Below are positions 2,355 through 15,074 of a stretch of 33,422 nucleotides of DNA, in pieces. The stretch is from Crocinitomix sp. (lineage in GTDB: Bacteria; Bacteroidota; Bacteroidia; Flavobacteriales_D; Crocinitomicaceae). The stretch is from positions 1 through 33,422 of the forward strand of contig WTCE01000103.1 of NCBI GenBank assembly GCA_013138735.1, given 5' to 3'. A model generated the notes under the pieces. That model ran no database searches and was not told the origin of the DNA. It saw nothing but the letters and a program-made list of their open reading frames with translations. The position numbers and the translations under genes are program-made. Numbering within the stretch: position 1 is the stretch's first letter; each line of letters begins with the position of its first letter.

Positions 2355-4802
2355 CTAATCAATAACCTTCGCATTACTAACCTTCACCTTCAATAAAGCA
2401 ATGGTCAAAACTTCATCCATAGTTTTCACATAGTGGAATTTCAAGCCTTTCAAATAACTTTGATCAATATCTAAGATGTCTTTTTCGTTCTTTGCAGAAA
2501 GAATAATTTCTTTGATATTAGCACGTCTAGCTGCCAAAATTTTCTCTTTGATTCCGCCTACAGGCAATACAGCGCCGCGTAAGGTGATTTCGCCAGTCAT
2601 GGCTAAGTATTTACGGACTTTGCGTTGTGTAAACGCTGAGGTAATAGCTGTTAGCATTGTAATTCCGGCAGATGGTCCATCTTTTGGAGTAGCTCCTTCT
2701 GGAACGTGAACGTGTACATCCCATTTGTCAAAAACAAGTGGGTCTACGCCAAATTCTTCAGCATTGGCTTTTAAATATTGGTGGGCCAATACAGCTGATT
2801 CTTTCATTACATCTCCTAAATTCCCCGTTAAGGTTAATTTTCCTTTTCCTTTAGATAAGCTGGTTTCAATGTATAGAATGTCACCGCCAATTTGTGTCCA
2901 AGCCAAGCCTGTCACTACACCTGCAAATTCATTTCCAAAATATTTGTCTTTGCCATGCGCAGGACCTAATATTTTAGCCAACTGATCTTCGGTTACTTTT
3001 GCCGTATATTTTTCTTCCATGGCAATTTCTTTTGCCCGGTTTCTGATTACGGCTGCAATGCGTTTTTCTAAACCACGTACACCCGATTCTCCTGTATATT
3101 CTTCAACAATTATTTCAATTAACTTGGGAGAAATACTGATGTCTTTTTTCGTGATACCATGTGCTGCTAATTGCTTTGGTACTAAATGACGTTTGGCAAT
3201 TTCAACTTTCTCTTCTACCGTATAACCGTTCACTTCTATAATTTCCATTCGGTCGCGCAATGGCCCTTGAATGGTGCTTAAATTATTGGCTGTAGCAATG
3301 AATAAGACACTCGAAAGGTCATAATCCAATTCCACAAAATTATCGTTGAAGGTTGCGTTTTGTTCCGGATCAAGTACTTCTAATAAAGCAGATGACGGAT
3401 CGCCTTGATTTCCTCTTCCTACTTTGTCAATTTCATCTAATACAAAAACAGGATTGGATGTTTTAGCTTTTTTAATGTTCTGTAAAATTCGACCTGGCAT
3501 AGCACCAATATAGGTTCTTCTATGTCCTCTAATCTCTGCTTCGTCATGCACACCGCCCAATGACATTCTCACGTATTTGCGTCCTAATGCTTCTGCAACA
3601 GATTTCCCTAATGAAGTTTTACCAACTCCAGGAGGTCCGTATAGGCAAAGAATAGGGGACTTCATATCTTTTTTCAACTTGATCACTGCCAAGTATTCTA
3701 AAATCCGATTCTTTACCTTGTCCAATCCAAAATGATCGCGATCTAGTATTTTCTTTGCACGCCTTAGGTTGAAATTATCGTCTGACATTTCATTCCATGG
3801 CAAATCTAATAACAAGTCAATATAATTGATTTGAACTGAGAATTCAGCCCCTTGAGGATTCATTCTGCCCAATTTTTTTAATTCTTTATCAAAAGTTTTT
3901 TGAACCTTTTTCGGCCATTTTTTAGCTTTGGCTCTTTTTTCAAAATTCTTAATCTCACTCTCACCCGGATTTTCACCTAATTCATCTTGAATCGTTCTAA
4001 TTTGCTGATTTAAGAAATACTCCCTTTGTTGGCGATCCATGTCAATTTTAACCTTGGTTTGGATCTCATTCTTCATCTTCAACATCTGTATTTCTACAGA
4101 CAAGTGGCCAATGACTTTTTCAATACGTTCAGTGATAGAATTGATTTCTAAAACTTCTTGTTTTTTCTCTACTTCAGAGCTCAGGTTAGAAGCTACAAAA
4201 TTTACTAAAAACGTAGGGCTTTCAATGTTCTTAATCGCAAAAGTCGCTTCAGAAGGAATGTTCGGCGATTGTTTAATAATGCGCATGGCCATTTCCTTCA
4301 TAGAATCAACCAAGGCTTTATTCTTATCCTTTGTGACATCTACTTTTTCATCAGTCAAACCTTTTACAACAGCTTTAAAATAAGGCGTTTCTTCAACGAA
4401 TTCGCTCACTTCAAAACGTCTTTTTCCCTGAATGATAACAGTAGTGCTACCATCAGGCATTTTAAGTCGTTTAAGTATTCTTGCTACCGTTCCAATTCTG
4501 TTTAAATCATCCGCAACAGGATCTTCAACCTCCGTCTTTTTTTGAGAGATTACCCCAATCGTCTTATTTCCTTTATAAGCATCTTCAATTAGCTTGATAG
4601 ATTTATCTCTACCAATCGTAATTGGAATGACAACTCCTGGAAATAATACATTATTACGGAGTGGTAAAATAGGTAACAAATCAGGAATTGATTCTTTGTT
4701 TAATGAATCCTCTTCTTCTTCAGAAATTAAAGGAATAAACTCAGCTTCTTGATCTAATATATTTGATAAGGCGAATAATTCACCCATTGTCGAGTCAGAC
4801 AT
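2355..4802 (-). CDS. lon: ATP-dependent endopeptidase Lon
   Basis: Full-length (815 residues) cytoplasmic AAA+ serine protease that unfolds and degrades misfolded and regulatory proteins. The N-terminal LON substrate-binding domain starts near [11 protein letters not shown] (about 46-56), followed by a coiled linker. The AAA+ module has Walker A GPPGVGKT (about 388-395) and a Walker B region around VFVLDEIDK. The C-terminal protease domain carries the Ser-Lys dyad: Ser711 in DGPSAGITM and Lys754 in GGIKEKIL. All key residues are present. ATG at 4802 gives a short acidic leader before the LON domain. A dyad just upstream (4817-4829) may be an operator. Confidence 0.98.
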
Positions 4803-4816
4803 TTTTTCAGTTTTTT

Positions 4817-4829
4817 TGTCAATTTGGCA
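4817..4829 (-). promoter_or_regulatory. Possible stress operator before lon
   Basis: On the coding strand this reads TGCCAAATTGACA, a near-perfect dyad (TGnCAA / TTGnCA) 14 bases before the lon ATG. A loose -7-like box, TACGTTTTG, lies further upstream. A heat-shock or stress role is inferred from lon's usual regulation, not shown. Confidence 0.3.
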
Positions 4830-4920
4830 CGTCAGATTCTAATTTGCACTTTTTGTCTGTCAAAACGTACTTAGAAACCTCTTGTAGCCGTTAGTTTTCT
4901 AATACACCCTAATAGTTCAA

Positions 4921-6081
4921 TCACTGTGCCAAACGATCGAAGAGATATGTTAAAATTTCTTTATCTCCTTCGGTTAGATTTTTGCCACGGCGTTGCATCA
5001 TGTTTTCTGCCACTTGAAATGCTTTGTCCTTGTTAAACTTCGCCGTTTTTTCAACGCCACCCCACGTAAATGATGGAATGTACTTTGGAGGAAATCCTGC
5101 TCCAAATATATTAGCGCTTACACCAACGACAGTTGCTGTATTGAACATGGTGTTAATACCTGTTTTTGAATGATCGCCCATTAAAAGGCCGCAGAAGAGT
5201 ATGTCAGTACTTTCAATTTGATTCGTTTCATAAGAGTAGACCTTAACATTTGAGTAATTGTTTTTTAAATTACTTGAATTGCTATCTGCACCGATATTGC
5301 ACCATTCTCCAATTACAGAATTCCCTAAGAATCCGTCATGCCCTTTATTCGAGTAAGATTGAAAAATACAATTCGAAACTTCTCCGCCTACTTTACATTC
5401 TGGGCCAATAGTGGTGGCACCATATATTTTAGCTCCCATTTTTACGACAGCTTTTTCGCACAAAGCAAAAGGTCCTCTAATAATTGCGCCCTCCATTACT
5501 TCAGCGTTCTTACCAATATATATAGGTCCTGTTGAAGCATTTAAAATAGCATGTTCAACTTTGGCACCTTCTTCAATAAATATGTTTTCCGGGTTTGTGG
5601 TTCGATTACTGGCGTTTAACGGCTGACTTGTTCTGTTTTTTGTTATTACTTGAAAGTCCTTAATCGAAGCTTGGCTATTACGCTCAAAAATATGCCATGG
5701 CTTCTCAATTAAGCAAGTATATTCAATGGCTAAGTTTATTGTTTTTTCTTCAATACATCCTTTTTGCGCAATCTTGTCACTGTGTGAATATAGGGCTTCC
5801 CCTTTTTTGAGGTTTAGAACCGCTTCAACTAATTCAGGACTTGCTTTGTAATTACCTGCAATTGTGATACTCTCGTCATTTGGTATGCCTTCTTTGAATT
5901 TAGCATAAAGATAAGCCTCCGTCAAGTACGCCGTTTCATAGTCAACATTATACGCATCAAAATAATATTCCCAAGATTCTCGAATCGTCATAATTCCAAA
6001 CCTTATTTCCGCCACGGGACGTGTTAAAGTAAATGGGGCTAAACTTTTGTGTAATCCGTTGTCGTTGAAAATTATTTGCAT
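4921..6081 (-). CDS. GlmU-like sugar nucleotidyltransferase/acyltransferase (TIGR03991-type)
   Basis: 386 residues. The N-terminus (IIFNDNGLHKSLAPFTLTRP, then VAEIRFGIMTIRESW) fits the Bacteroidota-restricted GlmU-like family rather than classical GlmU: the standard nucleotide-binding signature is replaced. The C-terminal half (about 170-330) is a left-handed beta-helix of hexapeptide repeats (for example PIYIGKNAEVMEGAIIRGPF), as in acyltransferases. In this phylum it is thought to make UDP-N-acetylglucosamine for peptidoglycan and LPS; that role is inferred from the family. ATG at 6081 sits only 14 bases after the rpmE2 terminator, so its mRNA leader must be very short or come from read-through. 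Confidence 0.85.
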   Translation of the reverse strand: MQIIFNDNGLHKSLAPFTLTRPVAEIRFGIMTIRESWEYYFDAYNVDYETAYLTEAYLYAKFKEGIPNDESITIAGNYKASPELVEAVLNLKKGEALYSHSDKIAQKGCIEEKTINLAIEYTCLIEKPWHIFERNSQASIKDFQVITKNRTSQPLNASNRTTNPENIFIEEGAKVEHAILNASTGPIYIGKNAEVMEGAIIRGPFALCEKAVVKMGAKIYGATTIGPECKVGGEVSNCIFQSYSNKGHDGFLGNSVIGEWCNIGADSNSSNLKNNYSNVKVYSYETNQIESTDILFCGLLMGDHSKTGINTMFNTATVVGVSANIFGAGFPPKYIPSFTWGGVEKTAKFNKDKAFQVAENMMQRRGKNLTEGDKEILTYLFDRLAQ

Positions 6082-6094
6082 AAAAAAAAGGATA

Positions 6095-6129
6095 TAAAAA
6101 AACCCGTATCAACAATGTTAATACGGGTT
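6095..6129 (-). terminator. Rho-independent terminator after rpmE2
   Basis: AACCCGTAT (6101-6109) pairs perfectly with ATACGGGTT (6121-6129) across an 11-base loop. On the minus strand the stem is followed directly by a T run. It lies 19 bases past the rpmE2 stop and just before the GlmU-like start. Confidence 0.9.
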
Positions 6130-6147
6130 ACTAAGTTATAAAAATTT

Positions 6148-6408
6148 TTATGATTTCTTCATGTTCTTACCGTAACGGTTCTTGAACTTATCAATTCTAC
6201 CCGCGGTATCTACAAACTGCATTTTACCAGTAAAGAAAGGATGTGATTCTGAAGAGATATCCAATTTAATTAAAGGATACTCATTTCCGTCTTCCCAAGC
6301 TTCTGTTTCGTTTGAACTAGCACAAGAGCTAGATATAAATTTGTAGCCGTTAGACATATCCTTGAAAACAACTAATCTGTATTCTTCTGGATGGATTCCC
6401 TTTTTCAT
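6148..6408 (-). CDS. rpmE2: 50S ribosomal protein L31, type B
   Basis: 86-residue L31 of the long, zinc-free type B form. It has the usual start [19 protein letters not shown] and the [20 protein letters not shown] core, followed by a basic end ([12 protein letters not shown]). The zinc-binding cysteine pattern of type A L31 is absent, as expected. It binds the large subunit near the central protuberance. It appears to be a single-gene transcript with its own promoter (6457-6487) and terminator (6095-6129). Confidence 0.96.
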
Positions 6409-6456
6409 CTTATTTTATTTTAATTTCGTCTTTTCTTAATTATGATTTCACTGTAT

Positions 6457-6487
6457 GAAACATACTTGTGCAAAATCGAGGTGCAAA
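6457..6487 (-). promoter_or_regulatory. Candidate Bacteroidota promoter for rpmE2
   Basis: On the minus strand TTTG (6487-6484) is followed after 19 bases by TATGTTTC (6464-6457), close to the -33 TTTG / -7 TAnnTTTG pattern of the housekeeping sigma in this phylum. It leaves a leader of roughly 45 bases. Confidence 0.5.
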
Positions 6488-6553
6488 TTTAGTATTTTTT
6501 TTTTAATCAAGATTATTTTCTGCAATAAAATAAAAAAACTAAAATTACGTAAT

Positions 6554-6561
6554 TACATTTG
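6554..6561 (+). promoter_or_regulatory. -7 box for the beta-helix lipoprotein gene
   Basis: TACATTTG matches TAnnTTTG exactly, 18 bases before the ATG at 6580. No convincing -33 element is seen. Confidence 0.45.
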
Positions 6562-6579
6562 TACAACCATTAATAAATT

Positions 6580-7959
6580 ATGCGATTAGTTCTATTTTCT
6601 TTCTTTCTTCTACTGGCCGGAATTTCTGTTTCTTGCAAAAAGGATAAAGGCTTCACGAAAAATCACTTGGATTTTTCGCAAGACACCTTGTTGTTTGATA
6701 CAGTTTTTACTACAGTAGGTTCCACAACAGAACGCTTTAAGATCTATAATAACAATACGGGCACCATTAATATTGACGAGATTCAGTTAATGGGTGGTGA
6801 GGATTCGCCTTTCAGAATTAATTTTGACGGAGTTCCAGGAGTCTATCATGAAAATATTGAATTAGAAGGAAAAGATTCACTCTATGGTTTTGTGGAAGTG
6901 ACCTTAGAAGTCAATAATGTATCTAACCCATTAGTCATTTCAGATTCAATTCGGTTTTTAACCAATGGCGTTAATCAATATTTAAAATTAGATGTTTGGG
7001 GGCAAGATGCTTATTTCCATGCAAATGAATTGGTAGGAGATCATATTGAGTTATGGCTAAATGATAAACCTCATGTCTTGTATGGGATTGTTGCCTGCGG
7101 TTTTCCAGGCTTAGATTCAAATAAAATCTTAACTATACCGGCGGGAACTCAAATTCATGGGCATAAGGACGCGCAGTTGATTGTTTATAAGAGTACACTC
7201 AACATTACAGGTGATTATGGAAATGAAGTTGTTTTCCAAGGAGATCGATTAGAAAGTTTTTACGATAACGTTTCGGGACAATGGACTGGAATTCGAATGA
7301 TTGAAGCCAGTACGAGTTCAATTAATTATGCCATTATTAAAAATGGTGCCGTTGGTTTACAGGTAGACAGCACGCAATCAGCGTTGACATTGAACTTAAC
7401 CAATACGATAATTGACAATTCTAACTTCTTTAATTTACTACTCGTTGCAAGTCCAAATGTGTTGGCAGAAAATTGTCAATTTGGCAAGGCAGGAAGCTCG
7501 TCTGGTTTTTTCTTCGCAGGCGGAACGTATAATTTCAGACATTGTAATTTTGTCAACTATTGGACCGGCGGTAGAGGAGGAGCAGCTTTTAAAATTAAGA
7601 ACTACTATACTTTTGAAAACACAACCTATGTTAGTAGCATTATAGACTCCAGGTTTGACAATTGTATTTTCTATGGCAACGCTGCAAATGAAATTGATAT
7701 CGATACTTTAGAAGGATTAACAATGGATTTTGAATTTAACGCATCCTTAATGAAGCGAGAAGAAATTTATGAGTATTCAAATTATTCCCCATCCGTAATT
7801 TGGAATGTAAATCCTTTATTTATAGATCCAAGTTTAGAAGATTTTCATTTAGACATTGGTTCTCCACTCAGAAATGTCGGTGATCCATCCTATTCAAATG
7901 CTGCCGATATAGAAGGCGTTTCCAGAACTACACCGAATATTGGATTGTACGAGTTGTAA
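6580..7959 (+). CDS. Right-handed beta-helix lipoprotein
   Basis: 459-residue envelope lipoprotein. A signal peptide ends in a lipobox with the acylated Cys at residue 19 (GISVSCKKD). Residues 25-150 look like an immunoglobulin-like beta domain (TTERFKIYNNNTGTINIDEI). From about 160 to 370 there are parallel beta-helix features: an opening of the type LTIPAGTQIHGHKDAQLIVY, then short repeats with Asn ladders. The protein closes with LIDPSLEDFHLDIGSPL-like and NIGLYEL segments, common at the ends of such cell-surface proteins. The substrate or partner is unknown. It has its own -7 box, and no neighbouring gene shares its transcript. Confidence 0.8.
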   Translation: MRLVLFSFFLLLAGISVSCKKDKGFTKNHLDFSQDTLLFDTVFTTVGSTTERFKIYNNNTGTINIDEIQLMGGEDSPFRINFDGVPGVYHENIELEGKDSLYGFVEVTLEVNNVSNPLVISDSIRFLTNGVNQYLKLDVWGQDAYFHANELVGDHIELWLNDKPHVLYGIVACGFPGLDSNKILTIPAGTQIHGHKDAQLIVYKSTLNITGDYGNEVVFQGDRLESFYDNVSGQWTGIRMIEASTSSINYAIIKNGAVGLQVDSTQSALTLNLTNTIIDNSNFFNLLLVASPNVLAENCQFGKAGSSSGFFFAGGTYNFRHCNFVNYWTGGRGGAAFKIKNYYTFENTTYVSSIIDSRFDNCIFYGNAANEIDIDTLEGLTMDFEFNASLMKREEIYEYSNYSPSVIWNVNPLFIDPSLEDFHLDIGSPLRNVGDPSYSNAADIEGVSRTTPNIGLYEL

Positions 7960-9561: not shown

Positions 9562-9790
9562 AAGCCTAAGGTAAATCGTTTAGATTTCAGTTTAATGAAA
9601 AAAAAAGTAAATTATTATTATTTTTATTAAATGGTTCGTTTCGTAGATTATTCGCGGGATGTAGCGCACAATAAATCGGAACATTTTGCGTTTATTAAAT
9701 TGTGGCAGCAATCTTGCAATTAACCATTGTAACCAAACAAAAGGATTGTTGTTATACAAATGCAAAGAAATTAAAACCAAACAAGTAATT

Positions 9791-10372
9791 ATGCCGACTA
9801 ACCCGATTTATCACCATACGGAGGATAAGCTGTTGATGGAGCTGAAGTGGATAAAGTACGCTCAAGAAAATCCTCGTGGCTTCGAGCCATTGTACAATAA
9901 GTACTACGAACAGATATTGAGATACATTTATCAGCGGATAGATGACAAAGAAACTGCTTACGACATTGCAAGCCAAGTATTCTTAAAAGCACTAAACAAT
10001 ATTCATAAATATGAGTATCGTGGGGTTCCTTTTGCATCTTGGTTGTATAGAATTGCTAAAAGCGAGCTATACCAATCGTTTCGTGATAAAAAGGCAAGAA
10101 GAACTGTAAATGTAGACACTTCTAATCTTTCAGAAATGATTGATGAGATGGAAGAAGATACATCAGACGGTAATAGACAAGTATTGATTCAATTGATCAA
10201 AAAATTAAAAGAAGATGAGGTTCAGATGGTCGAGCTCAGATTCTTTGAAAAGCGCTCTTTTAAAGAGATAGGCGAGATATTGGATATAACAGAGAACAAC
10301 GCAAAAGTAAAATCGCATAGAGTAATCAACAAAATGAAAAAACTATTTAATCAGATAGGGAATGAAAAATAG
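9791..10372 (+). CDS. ECF-type RNA polymerase sigma factor
   Basis: 193 residues from the ATG at 9791; a second in-frame ATG at 9836 (MELKWIKYAQENPRGFE) is also possible. Region 2 covers RGFEPLYNKYYEQILRYIY to ASWLYRIAKSELYQSF and would bind core polymerase and the -10 element. Region 4 covers LIKKLKEDEVQMVELRFFEK to the helix-turn-helix ITENNAKVKSHRVINKM. No region 3 or extra domain is present. The gene overlaps the next one by 11 bases, the usual sign of a sigma factor paired with its regulator. The partner is a membrane protein, so the sigma factor is probably held at the inner membrane until a periplasmic signal arrives (inference). Confidence 0.92.
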   Translation: MPTNPIYHHTEDKLLMELKWIKYAQENPRGFEPLYNKYYEQILRYIYQRIDDKETAYDIASQVFLKALNNIHKYEYRGVPFASWLYRIAKSELYQSFRDKKARRTVNVDTSNLSEMIDEMEEDTSDGNRQVLIQLIKKLKEDEVQMVELRFFEKRSFKEIGEILDITENNAKVKSHRVINKMKKLFNQIGNEK

Positions 10373-11168
10373 AAAGATTAATTTGGATCGCCCGCAATTG
10401 AACGCAGACGAAATAATGACAGGCAAAAATTTCGAATCTGTTGTGCGCAACCACCAAATAATGTCAAAACCATTTTATAAACAGAATTGGTTTTTCGGCA
10501 CCACAGGAATAGCCTCATTAGGATTAATAATTGGAGGGACCTTAGCGTTCCAAAATTCAACTGAAAATCTAGTTTCGACGGACATGTTGAACACAGACGC
10601 CCCTCCAAACTTGACGGTCCCCGATAATAATTTTATCGTGATGAACGCAAGAACTGAGCAGTCGTTTGACGACTTTGCAAAGAAAACAATCGTAATTAAC
10701 CTTGAAAATATAACGCCAATAGAAGAAACACCGACTCTAGATAACCCAACCGAAACGAATGTCATTGAAAGTCTTGCAGATGTTGCAACTGATAATGCCG
10801 AAGAAATAATAACAGCTGAAGTTCCTGAAATTGAGAACACTAATGTTGTTGCTTCAAACCCAAGTATGGATATTAATCCTAGGATTAGTAATAAAATGGG
10901 AGGTTCTATTACACGTAACGAATTATTGGATAATAAAGGTATCACCACCGAAGGAGATGTAAATATCATCCACTTTGAATTGCATTTAATCGACGGATTA
11001 GGAGGGAAAGTATTTGCCGAAGAAGGCAACCAACTAAACGAAGATATGAAGGATGCACTTGAAAGTGTGGGGCAGGGAGAAACCATTTATTTTGAAAATA
11101 TTCGGGGCAAAGTGAAGAACGGTAGAGAGGTAAGATTAAATCCGCTTCGGTACGTTTTAATGAACTAA
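10362..11168 (+). CDS. Single-pass membrane protein with GldM C-terminal-like domain, putative sigma-factor partner
   Basis: 268 residues in three parts. The cytoplasmic N-terminus (1-43) contains a basic/aromatic stretch (MSKPFYKQNW). One membrane helix lies at about 44-63. The periplasmic part has an acidic, Asn/Thr/Glu-rich linker (70-175) and a compact end domain (180-267). That end domain resembles the last domain of the T9SS motor protein GldM/PorM: GGSITRNELLDNKGI, then FELHLIDGLGGKVF, a short helix EDMKDAL, and GETIYFENIRGKVKNG with a Leu-rich closing strand. No classical anti-sigma zinc motif is visible. Overlap with the sigma gene and this topology suggest an anti-sigma or sigma regulator that senses a T9SS-related envelope state. 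The GldM likeness is by eye. Confidence 0.65.
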   Translation: MKNRKINLDRPQLNADEIMTGKNFESVVRNHQIMSKPFYKQNWFFGTTGIASLGLIIGGTLAFQNSTENLVSTDMLNTDAPPNLTVPDNNFIVMNARTEQSFDDFAKKTIVINLENITPIEETPTLDNPTETNVIESLADVATDNAEEIITAEVPEIENTNVVASNPSMDINPRISNKMGGSITRNELLDNKGITTEGDVNIIHFELHLIDGLGGKVFAEEGNQLNEDMKDALESVGQGETIYFENIRGKVKNGREVRLNPLRYVLMN

Positions 11169-11267
11169 TTGTCAATCCATTAATCGGATGTTTTTGGTTA
11201 TTCGCCATTGAGACGTTAATTTTCAACGAAAAAGCGGGATGTTTTTATCAAGTTAAGTTGGATTGTA

Positions 11268-11275
11268 TACATTTG
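11268..11275 (+). promoter_or_regulatory. -7 box before the PorG-like gene
   Basis: TACATTTG matches TAnnTTTG exactly, 28 bases before the ATG at 11303. The gene may thus have its own transcript in addition to the sigma operon. Confidence 0.5.
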
Positions 11276-11302
11276 CATTGATTCTTTATTAAGAATTGTA
11301 AA

Positions 11303-12259
11303 ATGCGTTGTTTTAAAAGAATATACCTACTTGTCTTGTTGCTCTTTGTTTTGAGTACATCAGGCTATAGCCAAGGCTCGCATTTTACGAGATCAGATCA
11401 CTGGAAAACGCAGCGAAAAGAACTAATATTTGGGGCTGGTGCTTCAAATTTCTTAGGAGATTTGGGTGGTTTAAACAGAATAGGAACACATTATATTCCT
11501 GTAGATATTGATTGGAATACAACACGTCCATCTGGACACGTTGGTTTTCGATATCGATTCGCATCCATGTGGGCAACAAAAACATTGATTCAATACGCCG
11601 TGCTAAAAGGGGATGACGCATTGACGAATGAACCCGCACGACGAAACAGAAACCTGAGTTTTCGCACACATCTTTTTGAACTTTCACAGCACATAGAATT
11701 TCTTTTCTTTAGTAACGAACGCTATGGTGCTCGTCATAAAATATATGGCTTAAAGGGAATGCGAAATAAAAACACTGTAGCCTATTTATTTACAGGTGTG
11801 ACCGGTTTTGGATTTATTCCACAAGGGCCAGGTGATGGCGGTTGGACCAATTTACGTCCACTTCATACCGAAGGTCAAGGCTTAACTGGCGGCGGAACTG
11901 AGTATAAAAAAATTGGTTTAGGAATTCCAATAGGAATAGGTTATAAAATTGGCTTAGACCCCTTATGGCGAATGTCATTTGAATTGAGTTATACCCAAAC
12001 ATTCACGGATTATTTGGATGACGTAAGCGGTCTTTATTTTGACAATGATCTTATCCAAGCATCTTACGGCAGCACTTCCGCTTATTTCGCTGATCCATCT
12101 ACTGGCGCTTTTCCAACATGGACACATACTGGTGAGTTACGTGGCGATTCTAAACACAAAGACGGTTATCTCTTTTTAAATATTTCCTTCATCCGTAATA
12201 TAACGGATATGCGTTCTGGTAGAATCAAATGGAAATACAAGCGCCGTTATAAATTGTAG
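11303..12259 (+). CDS. Outer-membrane beta-barrel protein, PorG/DUF6089-like
   Basis: 318 residues with a signal peptide ending near residue 24 (SGYSQG). The mature protein begins with ELIFGAGASNFLGDLGG, a pattern seen at the first strand of DUF6089/PorG-type barrels. Alternating aromatic strands run through to the end, with TQTFTDYLDDVSGLYFD near the last strands and a basic C-terminal tail (IKWKYKRRYKL). PorG is the outer-membrane partner of the PorK/PorN ring in T9SS. Whether this is true PorG or a paralogue cannot be decided here. It lies 134 bases after the GldM-like gene on the same strand. Confidence 0.65.
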   Translation: MRCFKRIYLLVLLLFVLSTSGYSQGSHFTRSDHWKTQRKELIFGAGASNFLGDLGGLNRIGTHYIPVDIDWNTTRPSGHVGFRYRFASMWATKTLIQYAVLKGDDALTNEPARRNRNLSFRTHLFELSQHIEFLFFSNERYGARHKIYGLKGMRNKNTVAYLFTGVTGFGFIPQGPGDGGWTNLRPLHTEGQGLTGGGTEYKKIGLGIPIGIGYKIGLDPLWRMSFELSYTQTFTDYLDDVSGLYFDNDLIQASYGSTSAYFADPSTGAFPTWTHTGELRGDSKHKDGYLFLNISFIRNITDMRSGRIKWKYKRRYKL

Positions 12260-12536: not shown

Positions 12537-15074
12537 ATGAGAATGCTCAAACGTATTATTTTCCCTTTAGCAATCATTTGTTTCACAGCACTACAGTCTT
12601 TTGCACAAACCACTTCGGAAAGTGCAATAGACCAACCTGCAAAAGTGTTTTTAGAAAACTTGTTTACCTCAGGTAAAACATTCGTCGAAATAACTGAAGA
12701 GGCAGATGCTTATTTCGAGCTAAAATATCCAACCTTATCACCAGCAGAACTTTGCGAAGGTGAGTTTAGAGACGGAACTTTTGTGAAATACCAACGCTGG
12801 TGTTCATTTTGGAAAAATAATTTAAATGCGGATGGTACTTTAGGAGATTTCACAAAAGTAGCACGAGCTGCCACAAAAAATAGAGATTCAAGAGAAGTAA
12901 TATGTGAAGATAGTGATTCACCAATTGAATGGACAAACATTAATTATACCAGCAATATGGGTTGGCAAATAGACCAAGGGCGAGCAAGTTCACTAGCTTT
13001 TCACCCCACAGATCCAGACACGTATTATATAGGTGCAGCTTGGGGAGGATTATGGAAAACGACTGACGGTGGTTTAACGAACACAATCGTGAATGATAAC
13101 TTACCCTTATCAGCCGTTTCTTCAATCATAATTGATCCGGATAACCCAGACAATATGTTGGTTTCTTTAAGTGATATTGTATGGTACGGACCAATGAGTC
13201 TTGGTGTTTATGTTTCTGGAGATGCTGGAGTTAATTTTTCCCCAACGGATTTAGATTGGGCCTTGACGGACAATAATCGTATTTATTATATGGATCAAGA
13301 TCCTACAGATGGGGATCACATTTTAGCTGCAACATCAGACGGAATATTTAGAAGTACAGACTTTTTTACGTCAAATGAGTTGGTATTGAGTGGAGACATT
13401 CGATCAGTTAAATTTAGCAGAACTAATCCAGATATTGTTTATGCAGGTGGAGGATCAGGACAATTTTACAGAAGTGAGGACGGCGGAGAAAGTTTTGATC
13501 TGATTACCGATTTTGGAGGTGGCCATGTAAGAATTGCCGTTCCATTGGTAGATGGATCAACTCGTGTTGTTGCTACGCATAACACAAACTTACATACATC
13601 AACAGATAATGGATTAACTTTTGAATCGAAGGTTTTGCCGCAATCAAATATGGTGATTGAATTCGGAGTGGGTAGTGAGGATGTATTGAGTGTTGGGAAT
13701 TTAGAAGTGCATTCATCAGATGATTTTGGAGATAGTTTTACAGTTCGCACACATTGGTTGGGACATTATGATTTACCCCACATTCATGTTGATCAGCGCA
13801 ATGTCTTTGTCAATCCATTAAATGAGGATTTGGTTTACTATTGTAATGATGGTGGAATTTTTAGTCATGACGTAACGACTAATGGCTTTGAGAATCTTGC
13901 TACAGATTTAATTATTACGCAATATTATGACATTGCAGTTTCTCAAACAGAAGAGCAAGTATTAGGAGGCGGATCACAAGACTGTGGTAACGTTTTTAGA
14001 GGAGAAGATGGAGAATGGTGGCGATATGCCCAAACTGGAGATGGTATGGGACAAGACATTGATCCTGAATATGCGAATAGAAGATATTGGAGTTATCAAT
14101 ATGGTGCTTTAAGAAGATGGGAAGATGGCGATAATACCAACATCAAACCTGAAGGCGAAACTGGAGCATGGGAAACACCCTTTAAATTAGATCCGAATAA
14201 TAGTGACCGAATATTGGTGGGTTATACTTCAGTTTATGCATCAGATAATAATGGAGACACATGGGAAACTGTTGGAGATCCTGTTTTAGGAGGAACTGCT
14301 GATTTGGAACAATTGGCCATTTCACCTTCTAATTCTGAAAAAATTTATGCAGCAAAAGGCAGAACTTTATATGTAAAAGAGCCAGGTGTAGAAGCTTGGT
14401 CAATCATCAACACACCCGTATTTCAAGATATTACTGACTTAGAAGTTGATCCATTAGATGAGGATATCGTTTACATTTGTTATGCTGGATTCCTTGAAGG
14501 AAAAAAAGTGTATATGTCAGAAGATTCAGGCGAAAACTGGACGAATATTTCAGAAGATTTACCCAACTTACCATTTACGGCATTAGAATTATATTACGAC
14601 AAACCGGGTGCATTATTTGTTGGAACTTATGGTGCAGTTTACTACCGCGATACAATGTCAACAGAATGGCGTAAATATGGCTGTTTACCTAACACTTCCG
14701 TTAACGATATTGAAATTCAATACCATACCAATAAAATTTATGTAGGAACACATGGCCGTGGAATGTTTGAAGCGCCCATTACTCTTTACGTTTCATCAAC
14801 TGGTTCTGAATTGGAAGAGGACAACGTTCAATTGAGCCTTTATCCGAATCCGGCAGCAAATAACGTTACGATTAATAGTGCCAATTTAGATTTGAATAAT
14901 GCCGTGCTTAGCATAACAGACGTTACAGGAAGATTAATAAATGTGGAGTATAGTATTAATTCTAGCAATGAAATAACAGTGAATTGTTCCAATTTACGCC
15001 AAGGGAACTACTTTGTAACTGTAGTTGATGGGGAAAACAATAAACACGTATTGTCGCTTGTCATTAGTCAATAA
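12537..15074 (+). CDS. T9SS-secreted VPS10/sortilin-like beta-propeller protein
   Basis: 845 residues. A signal peptide (about 1-24, ending SFAQ) is followed by an N-terminal region containing a Cys/Trp motif. A large beta-propeller then runs from about 130 to 750, built of BNR/Asp-box-like units (FYRSEDGGESF, ASDNNGDTWE, MSEDSGENW, KTTDGGLT) as in VPS10/sortilin and GH74-like proteins. The C-terminus from about 764 is a type A T9SS sorting domain: LSLYPNPAANNVTI, ITDVTGRLI, then LRQGNYFVTVVDGENN. It is thus exported across the outer membrane and processed at the surface or released. The ligand is unknown. A lipoprotein gene follows after 12 bases. Confidence 0.9.
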   Translation: MRMLKRIIFPLAIICFTALQSFAQTTSESAIDQPAKVFLENLFTSGKTFVEITEEADAYFELKYPTLSPAELCEGEFRDGTFVKYQRWCSFWKNNLNADGTLGDFTKVARAATKNRDSREVICEDSDSPIEWTNINYTSNMGWQIDQGRASSLAFHPTDPDTYYIGAAWGGLWKTTDGGLTNTIVNDNLPLSAVSSIIIDPDNPDNMLVSLSDIVWYGPMSLGVYVSGDAGVNFSPTDLDWALTDNNRIYYMDQDPTDGDHILAATSDGIFRSTDFFTSNELVLSGDIRSVKFSRTNPDIVYAGGGSGQFYRSEDGGESFDLITDFGGGHVRIAVPLVDGSTRVVATHNTNLHTSTDNGLTFESKVLPQSNMVIEFGVGSEDVLSVGNLEVHSSDDFGDSFTVRTHWLGHYDLPHIHVDQRNVFVNPLNEDLVYYCNDGGIFSHDVTTNGFENLATDLIITQYYDIAVSQTEEQVLGGGSQDCGNVFRGEDGEWWRYAQTGDGMGQDIDPEYANRRYWSYQYGALRRWEDGDNTNIKPEGETGAWETPFKLDPNNSDRILVGYTSVYASDNNGDTWETVGDPVLGGTADLEQLAISPSNSEKIYAAKGRTLYVKEPGVEAWSIINTPVFQDITDLEVDPLDEDIVYICYAGFLEGKKVYMSEDSGENWTNISEDLPNLPFTALELYYDKPGALFVGTYGAVYYRDTMSTEWRKYGCLPNTSVNDIEIQYHTNKIYVGTHGRGMFEAPITLYVSSTGSELEEDNVQLSLYPNPAANNVTINSANLDLNNAVLSITDVTGRLINVEYSINSSNEITVNCSNLRQGNYFVTVVDGENNKHVLSLVISQ

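Follow-up and report, generated by a model that had tools for sequence, protein, structure and literature searches.

Little is understood of how cells tune the expression of gliding and type IX secretion system (T9SS) genes to the condition of the machinery, and the best described route, PorXY-SigP, comes from a non-gliding species. Here, we analyse a three-gene module in a window of Crocinitomix sp. DNA (the whole 33,422-nt stretch, on a single contig of a 6.8 Mb genome), in which a gene for an extracytoplasmic function (ECF) sigma factor is followed by genes for a single-pass membrane protein, hereafter protein 2, and for a PorG/DUF6089-like outer-membrane barrel. Protein 2 ends in a domain almost certainly homologous to D4, the periplasmic tip domain of the motor protein GldM/PorM, and the promoter motif of the sigma gene recurs upstream of the track lipoprotein gene gldJ.

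In Porphyromonas gingivalis, SigP depends on and binds the response regulator of the PorXY-SigP route, and it binds the promoter regions of porT, ruvA, porV, and porP, for which a motif different from the one described here has been proposed (PMC4800418, PMC7712824); candidate anti-sigma genes are listed there downstream of other ECF factors and, in that list, none for SigP (PMC7712824). In Flavobacterium psychrophilum, the promoter class SM6, of ECF type with a CGT −10 box, lies upstream of a PorG homologue, gldN, and porU as well as upstream of the ECF/anti-sigma pair THC0290_1774/1773; the class is not assigned there to one sigma factor, and TAnnTTTG is given as the main-sigma consensus (PMC9723704). 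As for the machine itself, D4 of PorM alone suffices for PorN binding in two-hybrid analysis of the P. gingivalis proteins (PMC5790014). GldJ, GldK, and GldN have been modelled as one moving track, with the PorM tip predicted in the cleft of PorN and PorG attached to GldK via cysteines of its periplasmic C-terminal tail (PMC12635249), and truncation of GldJ at its C-terminus is reported to reverse the direction in which the machine rotates (PMC12239597).

The sigma factor and its putative membrane partner

The sigma gene (9791..10372, plus strand) runs from its ATG at 9791 to a stop codon ending at 10372 and encodes 193 amino acids. Its product exceeds the Pfam cut-offs for Sigma70_r2 (6.1e-13) and Sigma70_r4 (3.1e-9) and finds no Pfam match for region 3, so that regions 2 and 4 only are present, as is characteristic of ECF factors; the NCBIfam model sigma70-ECF gives 84.2 bits (cut-off 42.9), and the identity of its relatives agrees with this assignment. 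Directly 3′ on the same strand, protein 2 (268 amino acids, 10362..11168) overlaps the sigma gene by 11 nt, and the barrel gene (318 amino acids, 11303..12259) follows. The original prediction of a sigma gene overlapping a single-pass membrane protein thus holds in its coordinates and in the single hydropathy peak of protein 2. While the sigma factor shares 57-98% identity with 13 aligned relatives, protein 2 drops to 19%, the pattern one would predict if the regulator is kept constant and its sensor evolves rapidly. The nearest named relatives of protein 2, from uncultured Crocinitomix metagenome-assembled genomes, are 86-89% identical.

Protein 2 is predicted to consist of a short cytoplasmic N-terminus, one transmembrane helix, and a periplasmic C-terminus. 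Residues 1-46 (10362..10499), the proposed sigma-binding part, carry the pattern K.N.DRP..S..I...NF..V.....KP.YK..WF conserved in alignments and have no Pfam match at E up to 1. The transmembrane helix is assigned to residues 47-66 (10500..10559): the hydropathy peak covers residues 44-63, the best 19-residue windows start at 44-45, and an AlphaFold2 model built from 18 sequences places a helix at 47-62. It is followed by an acidic linker (residues 67-172, 10560..10877; 21 D/E, 3 K/R), predicted to be disordered with pLDDT below 50 for residues 64-166, and by the D4-like domain (residues 173-268, 10878..11165), to which model confidence is confined: from residue 171 on, ten-residue blocks reach 86-93 pLDDT, with one at 78.

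The homology of the last 96 residues to GldM was established by profile comparison and structure. The Pfam model GldM_4th (PF12080) matches protein 2 with E 0.0046 and 18 bits, below its gathering score of 24.6, and gives below-cut-off matches in 5 of 14 control genomes as well. Since such a match is uninformative by itself, we built a profile-profile test from the last 96 residues of protein 2 in 17 relatives and from a GldM reference of 20 sequences, 18 of them from 20 fetched regions and two from the own genome; the reference omits the sigma-linked GldM genes L129, L130, and L133 and retains L167, which has a subfamily sigma nearby. Hhalign aligns the two with a probability of 98.6 (E 1.3e-15) over GldM columns 437-536 of 537, at a low sequence identity of 12%. 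The match is specific to D4: tested domain by domain, the probability is 99.2 for D4, 1.7 for D3, 0.1 for D2, and 0.2 for D1, and the controls reach 2.2 (best of 60 column-shuffled GldM profiles), 0.8 (reversed profile), and at most 0.5 (three unrelated profiles). A PDB sequence search with protein 2 directly finds nothing at E up to 10. With the model, in contrast, Foldseek returns seven PDB matches below E 1e-3, all of them PorM/GldM (E 9.5e-6 to 4.6e-4), with an rmsd of 2.0-2.5 Å in six structures and 3.4 Å for 6ey4. The proposal that the C-terminus of protein 2 resembles the final periplasmic domain of GldM is therefore borne out by profile and by fold. Protein 2 itself is not a full GldM/PorM protein, as it has no Pfam match to GldM_1st, GldM_2nd, or GldM_3rd; at E up to 1, the scan yields one other, chance-level match (E 0.86).

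In the reverse direction, the whole-family profile of protein 2 matches, via its C-terminal part, long frames in many genomes of the class, and 18 of 20 such regions fetched contain a GldM-like open reading frame (ORF). The class-level tally of 181 of 395 includes GldM genes proper and is not a count of the sigma/protein 2 system.

A promoter motif at the sigma gene and gldJ

Upstream of the sigma gene, an ECF-type promoter reads TGTAACC-N16-GTTATAC, which equals TGTAAC-N17-GTTATA (9728..9757, plus strand). It is likely autoregulatory, as the same or nearly the same motif recurs upstream of the sigma genes of relatives and of gldJ. TGTAAC-N16/17-RTTATA, or a sequence one letter off, is found ahead of the sigma gene in 20 of 23 loci; the distance from the first base of the motif to the start codon is 61-86 nt in 19 of them and 129 nt in one. 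The count of 20 uses the looser pattern, one site reading CGTAAC and one having C before TTATA.

The link to the T9SS is strengthened by further occurrences of this motif, which throughout the family stands ahead of gldJ. A matrix trained on the sigma sites only scores at least 12 in 39 of 49 gldJ upstream regions versus 10 of 621 other genes, and at least 14 in 26 of 49 versus 5 of 621. The counts exclude two gldJ matches, one lacking its N-terminus and one with a truncated upstream region. L263 and L269 represent a single gldJ gene, which leaves 38 of 48 distinct genes, and in 2 of 29 genomes gldJ is not matched at the cut-off. Being related, these gldJ genes do not amount to independent samples; in 16 of 21 genera at least one genome has a gldJ upstream region scoring 12 or more. 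At least 12 gldJ sites read CGTTAT at −10. High scores are also found upstream of more distant members of the sigma subfamily (e.g. L080, L078, L138). The original prediction that this layout could carry a T9SS or outer-membrane state signal to transcription gains its T9SS link from the gldJ sites, while passage of a signal and its direction stay at the level of proposal.

Exact matches to the motif lead to the same genes. In the own genome, one lies at gldJ, directly behind a porP-family gene (GldJ 460.8 bits, cut-off 458.2), and others lie upstream of a PorP/SprF gene, of a 277-aa GldJ-like protein, and of the sigma gene itself. In six relatives, 18 exact matches comprise five at gldJ, four at sigma genes, one at a GldJ-like protein, one at a protein with an FGE-sulfatase domain, two at NlpC/P60-type proteins, one at a thioredoxin-like protein, and four at others; resemblance to a scanned relative is the basis for naming the thioredoxin-like protein and one of the NlpC/P60-type proteins. 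Sixteen of the 18 stand close upstream of a start, versus 3.4% of random positions drawn from the fetched loci of the six relatives and seven distant genomes. The two left out of the 16 are L225, which overlaps an ORF, and L235, which lies inside one, and two sigma rows have extended ORF starts. In the seven distant genomes, the motif is found again at two gldJ genes from two distant families (L309, L316) and at one subfamily sigma; for both GldJ proteins, which are cut by the locus ends, the GldJ model gives the best match, with 390.8 and 451.2 bits (cut-off 458.2). The 29 genomes chosen as would-be sigma-free controls form no clean negative set, as 28 of them have a sigma match at E ≤ 1e-45. 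Given the position and conservation of the sites, we consider it likely that the sigma factor drives gldJ, and we keep this estimate lower because genus g2, discussed below, has gldJ sites and a weak or no sigma match.

Further sites and boxes were observed along the way. Upstream of the ECF promoter lies a sigma-54-like −24/−12 box of putative function, TGGCAGCAATCTTGC (9703..9717, plus strand), with GG-N10-GC spacing. The pattern TGGCA-N6/7-TTGY occurs in 21 of 71 sigma upstream regions versus 3 of 720 other genes (fetched loci, not deduplicated), hinting at a cascade from sigma-54 to the ECF factor. At L150 (C71 of the own genome), a gldL-gldM-gldN run is directly followed by an additional gldM and an additional gldN (5675-7399 and 4544-5536); the second gldN is one of the 10 of 621 non-gldJ genes above and has a copy of the sigma promoter upstream (score 18.0). 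At L188 (309-6116; own genome, C89), the gene of the 277-aa GldJ-like protein with the motif adjoins one whose large product, judged by eye, looks like Cas9; genes resembling Cas1 and Cas2 and a repeat array seem to come next.

Conservation, modularity, and the PorG-like barrel

Neighbourhoods were taken from 20 places with protein 2 matches within the family and from 40 class-level regions, chosen best or structurally distinct first; the ORF and locus counts cover these, the window, and 20 further relative loci, with nine fused loci counted twice. Within the bacterial family, protein 2 is matched at E ≤ 0.001 in 90 of the 200 genomes, and in 18 of the 24 genera, some of them by the N-terminus only. 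In 24 of 25 distinct fused loci, 49-441 nt separate protein 2 from the PorG-like gene that follows it, and the remaining locus is cut by the end of its contig, so that the expected conservation of the three-gene order is indeed found. The left flank is common to closer relatives and very different in more distant ones (L053-L059), yet even there the sigma gene remains together with protein 2, the PorG-like gene, and pyrD.

The first ~45 residues of protein 2 define an unnamed family that stands right behind a subfamily sigma in 73 of 75 ORFs, the two exceptions beginning near contig starts; at the order level, its profile matches 123 of 249 genomes, very short frames and some with a stop included. 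This segment is joined to various periplasmic parts. In a split form (L055, L056, L073), the N-terminal ~60 residues head a protein of 540-590 aa, and D4 is a separate protein of 130-150 aa, followed by the PorG-like gene and pyrD; the long periplasmic protein, folded from four sequences (mean pLDDT 56.7), has no PDB match below E 0.001. In another family, the N-terminus again heads a long protein, followed by a D3-D4 protein assigned by Pfam at L123 (GldM_3rd 25.8, cut-off 25.2; GldM_4th 24.2, below 24.6) and by resemblance to it at L125. In distant families (L129, L130, L133), a GldM gene of full length, which at L129 shows each of the four Pfam domains, lies directly 5′ of the subfamily sigma and an N-terminal membrane protein of 86-91 aa, and at L167 the subfamily sigma stands beside a GldM gene. 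The N-terminal family also occurs as proteins of 68-98 aa adjoining the sigma gene, and at some other loci the partners are of different kinds. Thus, the N-terminus is likely the sigma partner, and D4 appears to be one of several sensor ends, albeit a recurring one.

In genus g22 of the same family (e.g. G040:C11:58566-58697, G022:C23:35467-35565), protein 2 seems to have shrunk to frames of 57-82 aa in most cases, which comprise little more than the N-terminal segment and the transmembrane helix; in G040 and G022 they lie a few nucleotides behind the sigma gene, and some copies have an internal stop. In the own genome, the N-terminal profile counts two matches, of which the one in the window is placed, and a second such protein may exist.

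The barrel, which the original prediction called PorG/DUF6089-like, is confirmed as a DUF6089 protein and not as PorG proper. It scores 37.4 bits with Pfam DUF6089 (PF19573; gathering score 23.2) and 86.4 bits with NCBIfam T9SS_PorG, under the cut-off of 130; its tail is basic and the protein has no cysteine past residue 25. The last 45 residues are free of cysteine in 14 of 15 aligned rows, the window included; the fifteenth is a short row of 270 aa that has no tail. Among several DUF6089 proteins of the own genome, one elsewhere exceeds the PorG cut-off (169.8 bits) and has a tail cysteine. We therefore reject the barrel as the canonical PorG and regard it, by these sequence criteria, as a PorG paralogue, which by the published criterion should not be bonded to GldK. 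Its sequence is strongly conserved among relatives, and its constant position suggests participation, perhaps as the outer-membrane counterpart of D4.

Downstream of the barrel gene lie a gene for a T9SS-sorted protein with a Por_Secre_tail and BNR/sortilin-like repeats (12537-15074), a gene for a 246-aa protein, and pyrD. One or two genes are inserted ahead of pyrD in the window and near relatives; among 21 loci compared, the BNR/sortilin-like cargo is confined to the window and three near relatives. Elsewhere, at L052 (6793-8731), the PorG-like gene downstream of protein 2 is duplicated in tandem. In the own genome, L151 (4648-7434, C105) holds three tandem PorG-type genes, two of them family-scanned, with tail cysteines in two and none in the third, and L149 (5647-6390, C26) encodes a stand-alone exported protein of 247 aa with GldM_4th over the cut-off (33.4 bits) and, judged by eye, no sigma-like gene among the neighbouring ORFs.

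Proposed mechanism, rival explanations, and known systems

On balance, we favour an autoregulated pair of ECF sigma factor and transmembrane anti-sigma factor, in which a copy of the GldM tip serves as periplasmic sensor, reports the state of the ring or track, and adjusts gldJ. The short cytoplasmic N-terminus of protein 2 would keep the sigma factor at the inner membrane, and the long flexible acidic linker would let D4 reach the targets of the GldM tip, namely the GldN face of the ring or the gliding track, with the PorG-like barrel perhaps contacted together with GldN. An imbalance in ring or track assembly might then change the occupancy of the tip and release the sigma factor, which would transcribe its own operon and gldJ. 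Further targets may comprise a few envelope genes, with the GldJ-like and PorP/SprF proteins as candidates in the own genome. A membrane-held sigma partner of this kind could sense free or moving GldN, while its predicted target gldJ supplies a part of the track. Docking on GldN, sigma binding, the match of sigma factor and motif, and the homeostatic logic are steps that we infer. That the pair senses T9SS or track state is slightly favoured. A homeostatic checkpoint appears to be the most likely logic, the sign of the response being a guess, and negative feedback rather than another logic is possible, if doubtful.

Several observations weigh against this interpretation. The N-terminal segment of protein 2 is modelled at just 52-62 pLDDT, many distant relatives have this segment without any D4, and genomes with a strong sigma match and no protein 2 match exist (e.g. 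G018, G050, G002). Exact motif counts show no clear excess over the reversed motif (own genome, 12 against 14; the six relatives, 18 against 21; the seven distant genomes, 19 against 15), and the regulon is therefore based on position and conservation and not on these counts. Ten of 49 gldJ upstream regions score below 12, five of 21 genera have none at or above it, and the gldKLMN region of the own genome contains no exact motif site. In genus g2, the gldJ upstream regions of three genomes score 15.0, 15.0, and 18.8, while the sigma factor is matched weakly (1.7e-54, 2.0e-49) or not at all and no N-terminal-family match was found in the three genomes; either another sigma factor can use the site, or the sigma/protein 2 pair was lost there. 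Finally, the upstream region of the barrel gene has no TGTAAC-type ECF motif.

Four alternatives were considered. Genus g2 and the motif counts, together with the at least one further ECF sigma gene of the own genome, which has a TGTAAC motif ~242 nt upstream, would fit a different ECF factor reading the promoter at gldJ, with the window system serving targets of its own. We consider this improbable given the motif upstream of the window-type sigma's own gene in 20 of 23 loci and the high scores at distant subfamily members. A reading in which D4 has no T9SS role today and acts as a general reader of the outer membrane or cell wall, for instance as a barrel binder, would turn the module into an ordinary envelope-stress pair with gldJ as an incidental target. 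The low identity between D4 and GldM, the general envelope genes among the motif neighbours (NlpC/P60, thioredoxin-like), and the other periplasmic parts that relatives place on the same N-terminus agree with it; yet gldJ (5 of 18) and the sigma gene itself (4 of 18) are the commonest motif neighbours in six relatives, and GldM-derived domains recur with the sigma subfamily in several arrangements, which makes this reading unlikely.

The nature of protein 2 and the role of the barrel raise the remaining two. ECF/anti-sigma pairs are usually encoded as a sigma gene followed by an overlapping single-pass protein under an autoregulated promoter. The downstream position of anti-sigma genes is given in PMC7712824 as well. 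The module has this layout, with a promoter that is likely autoregulated, and versions of 68-98 aa persist beside the sigma gene, so that protein 2 is very probably an anti-sigma factor. It could instead activate the sigma factor or tether it to the membrane as a requirement for activity, since a Pfam scan at E up to 1 finds no described anti-sigma domain (FecR, zinc-binding, or the like) and the anti-sigma role is suggested by adjacency and topology; against the usual layout, this possibility seems remote. Considerably more serious is the view, not our preferred one, that the barrel is a mere neighbour retained through local synteny. Its upstream region in the window, lacking an ECF motif of its own, has a TAnnTTTG-like box resembling the main-sigma consensus given in PMC9723704, and where inspected the gene is usually followed by the unrelated pyrD. 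However, the barrel gene follows protein 2 directly despite a different left flank, and it follows the split form too.

The gldJ motif and the proposed motor-tip regulator provide a concrete, testable link between the state of the track or ring and transcription, and the unnamed N-terminal family offers a starting point from which to identify the partner of a widespread ECF subfamily of Bacteroidota. More tentatively, we may be looking at a class-wide family of sigma/anti-sigma pairs of Bacteroidota that read the T9SS motor and gliding track directly. The anti-sigma factor would then carry a decoy of the motor tip, which either competes with GldM for GldN on the moving track or follows GldM there, and track assembly or load would be converted into gldJ transcription. 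Such a system would act as a checkpoint on mechanics or assembly, made from a duplicated part of the motor and comparable in logic to FlgM-FliA of flagella.

The original prediction is supported overall. Among known systems, protein 2 shares with GldM/PorM the fold and profile of D4 (PF12080) in its last ~96 residues, an inner-membrane helix near the N-terminus, and a tip at the C-terminus; it differs in that its N-terminus is the sigma-associated segment and its gene partner a sigma factor. The barrel resembles PorG in its DUF6089 score, and differs from it in falling under the PorG cut-off and in its basic, cysteine-free tail. As with SM6, an ECF-type promoter with a CGT −10 box, here CGTTAT at 12 or more gldJ sites, occurs at T9SS genes and at an ECF/anti-sigma pair; the printed selection of SM6 targets contains a PorG homologue, gldN, and porU, and not gldJ (PMC9723704). 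The two systems may be one. Like SigP, the window sigma is predicted to govern T9SS genes as an ECF factor. The claim that the module is distinct from PorXY-SigP stands by virtue of its adjacent membrane protein and its unlike promoter motif, and not on a comparison with the SigP sequence. Literature searches, conducted mostly at the level of listings, turned up neither a GldM-domain anti-sigma factor nor a link between an ECF factor and gldJ.

FecR-type cell-surface signalling likewise brings together an outer-membrane protein, a periplasmic sensor, a single transmembrane helix, and an ECF sigma factor. In contrast, protein 2 has no FecR domain, no TonB receptor stands beside it, and its sensor is derived from a motor protein. 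What appears to be new in this locus, as far as its sequence and that of its relatives suggest, is the ECF-type promoter motif shared by the sigma gene and gldJ, and with it a putative variant of ECF/anti-sigma signalling whose sensor derives from the T9SS motor.

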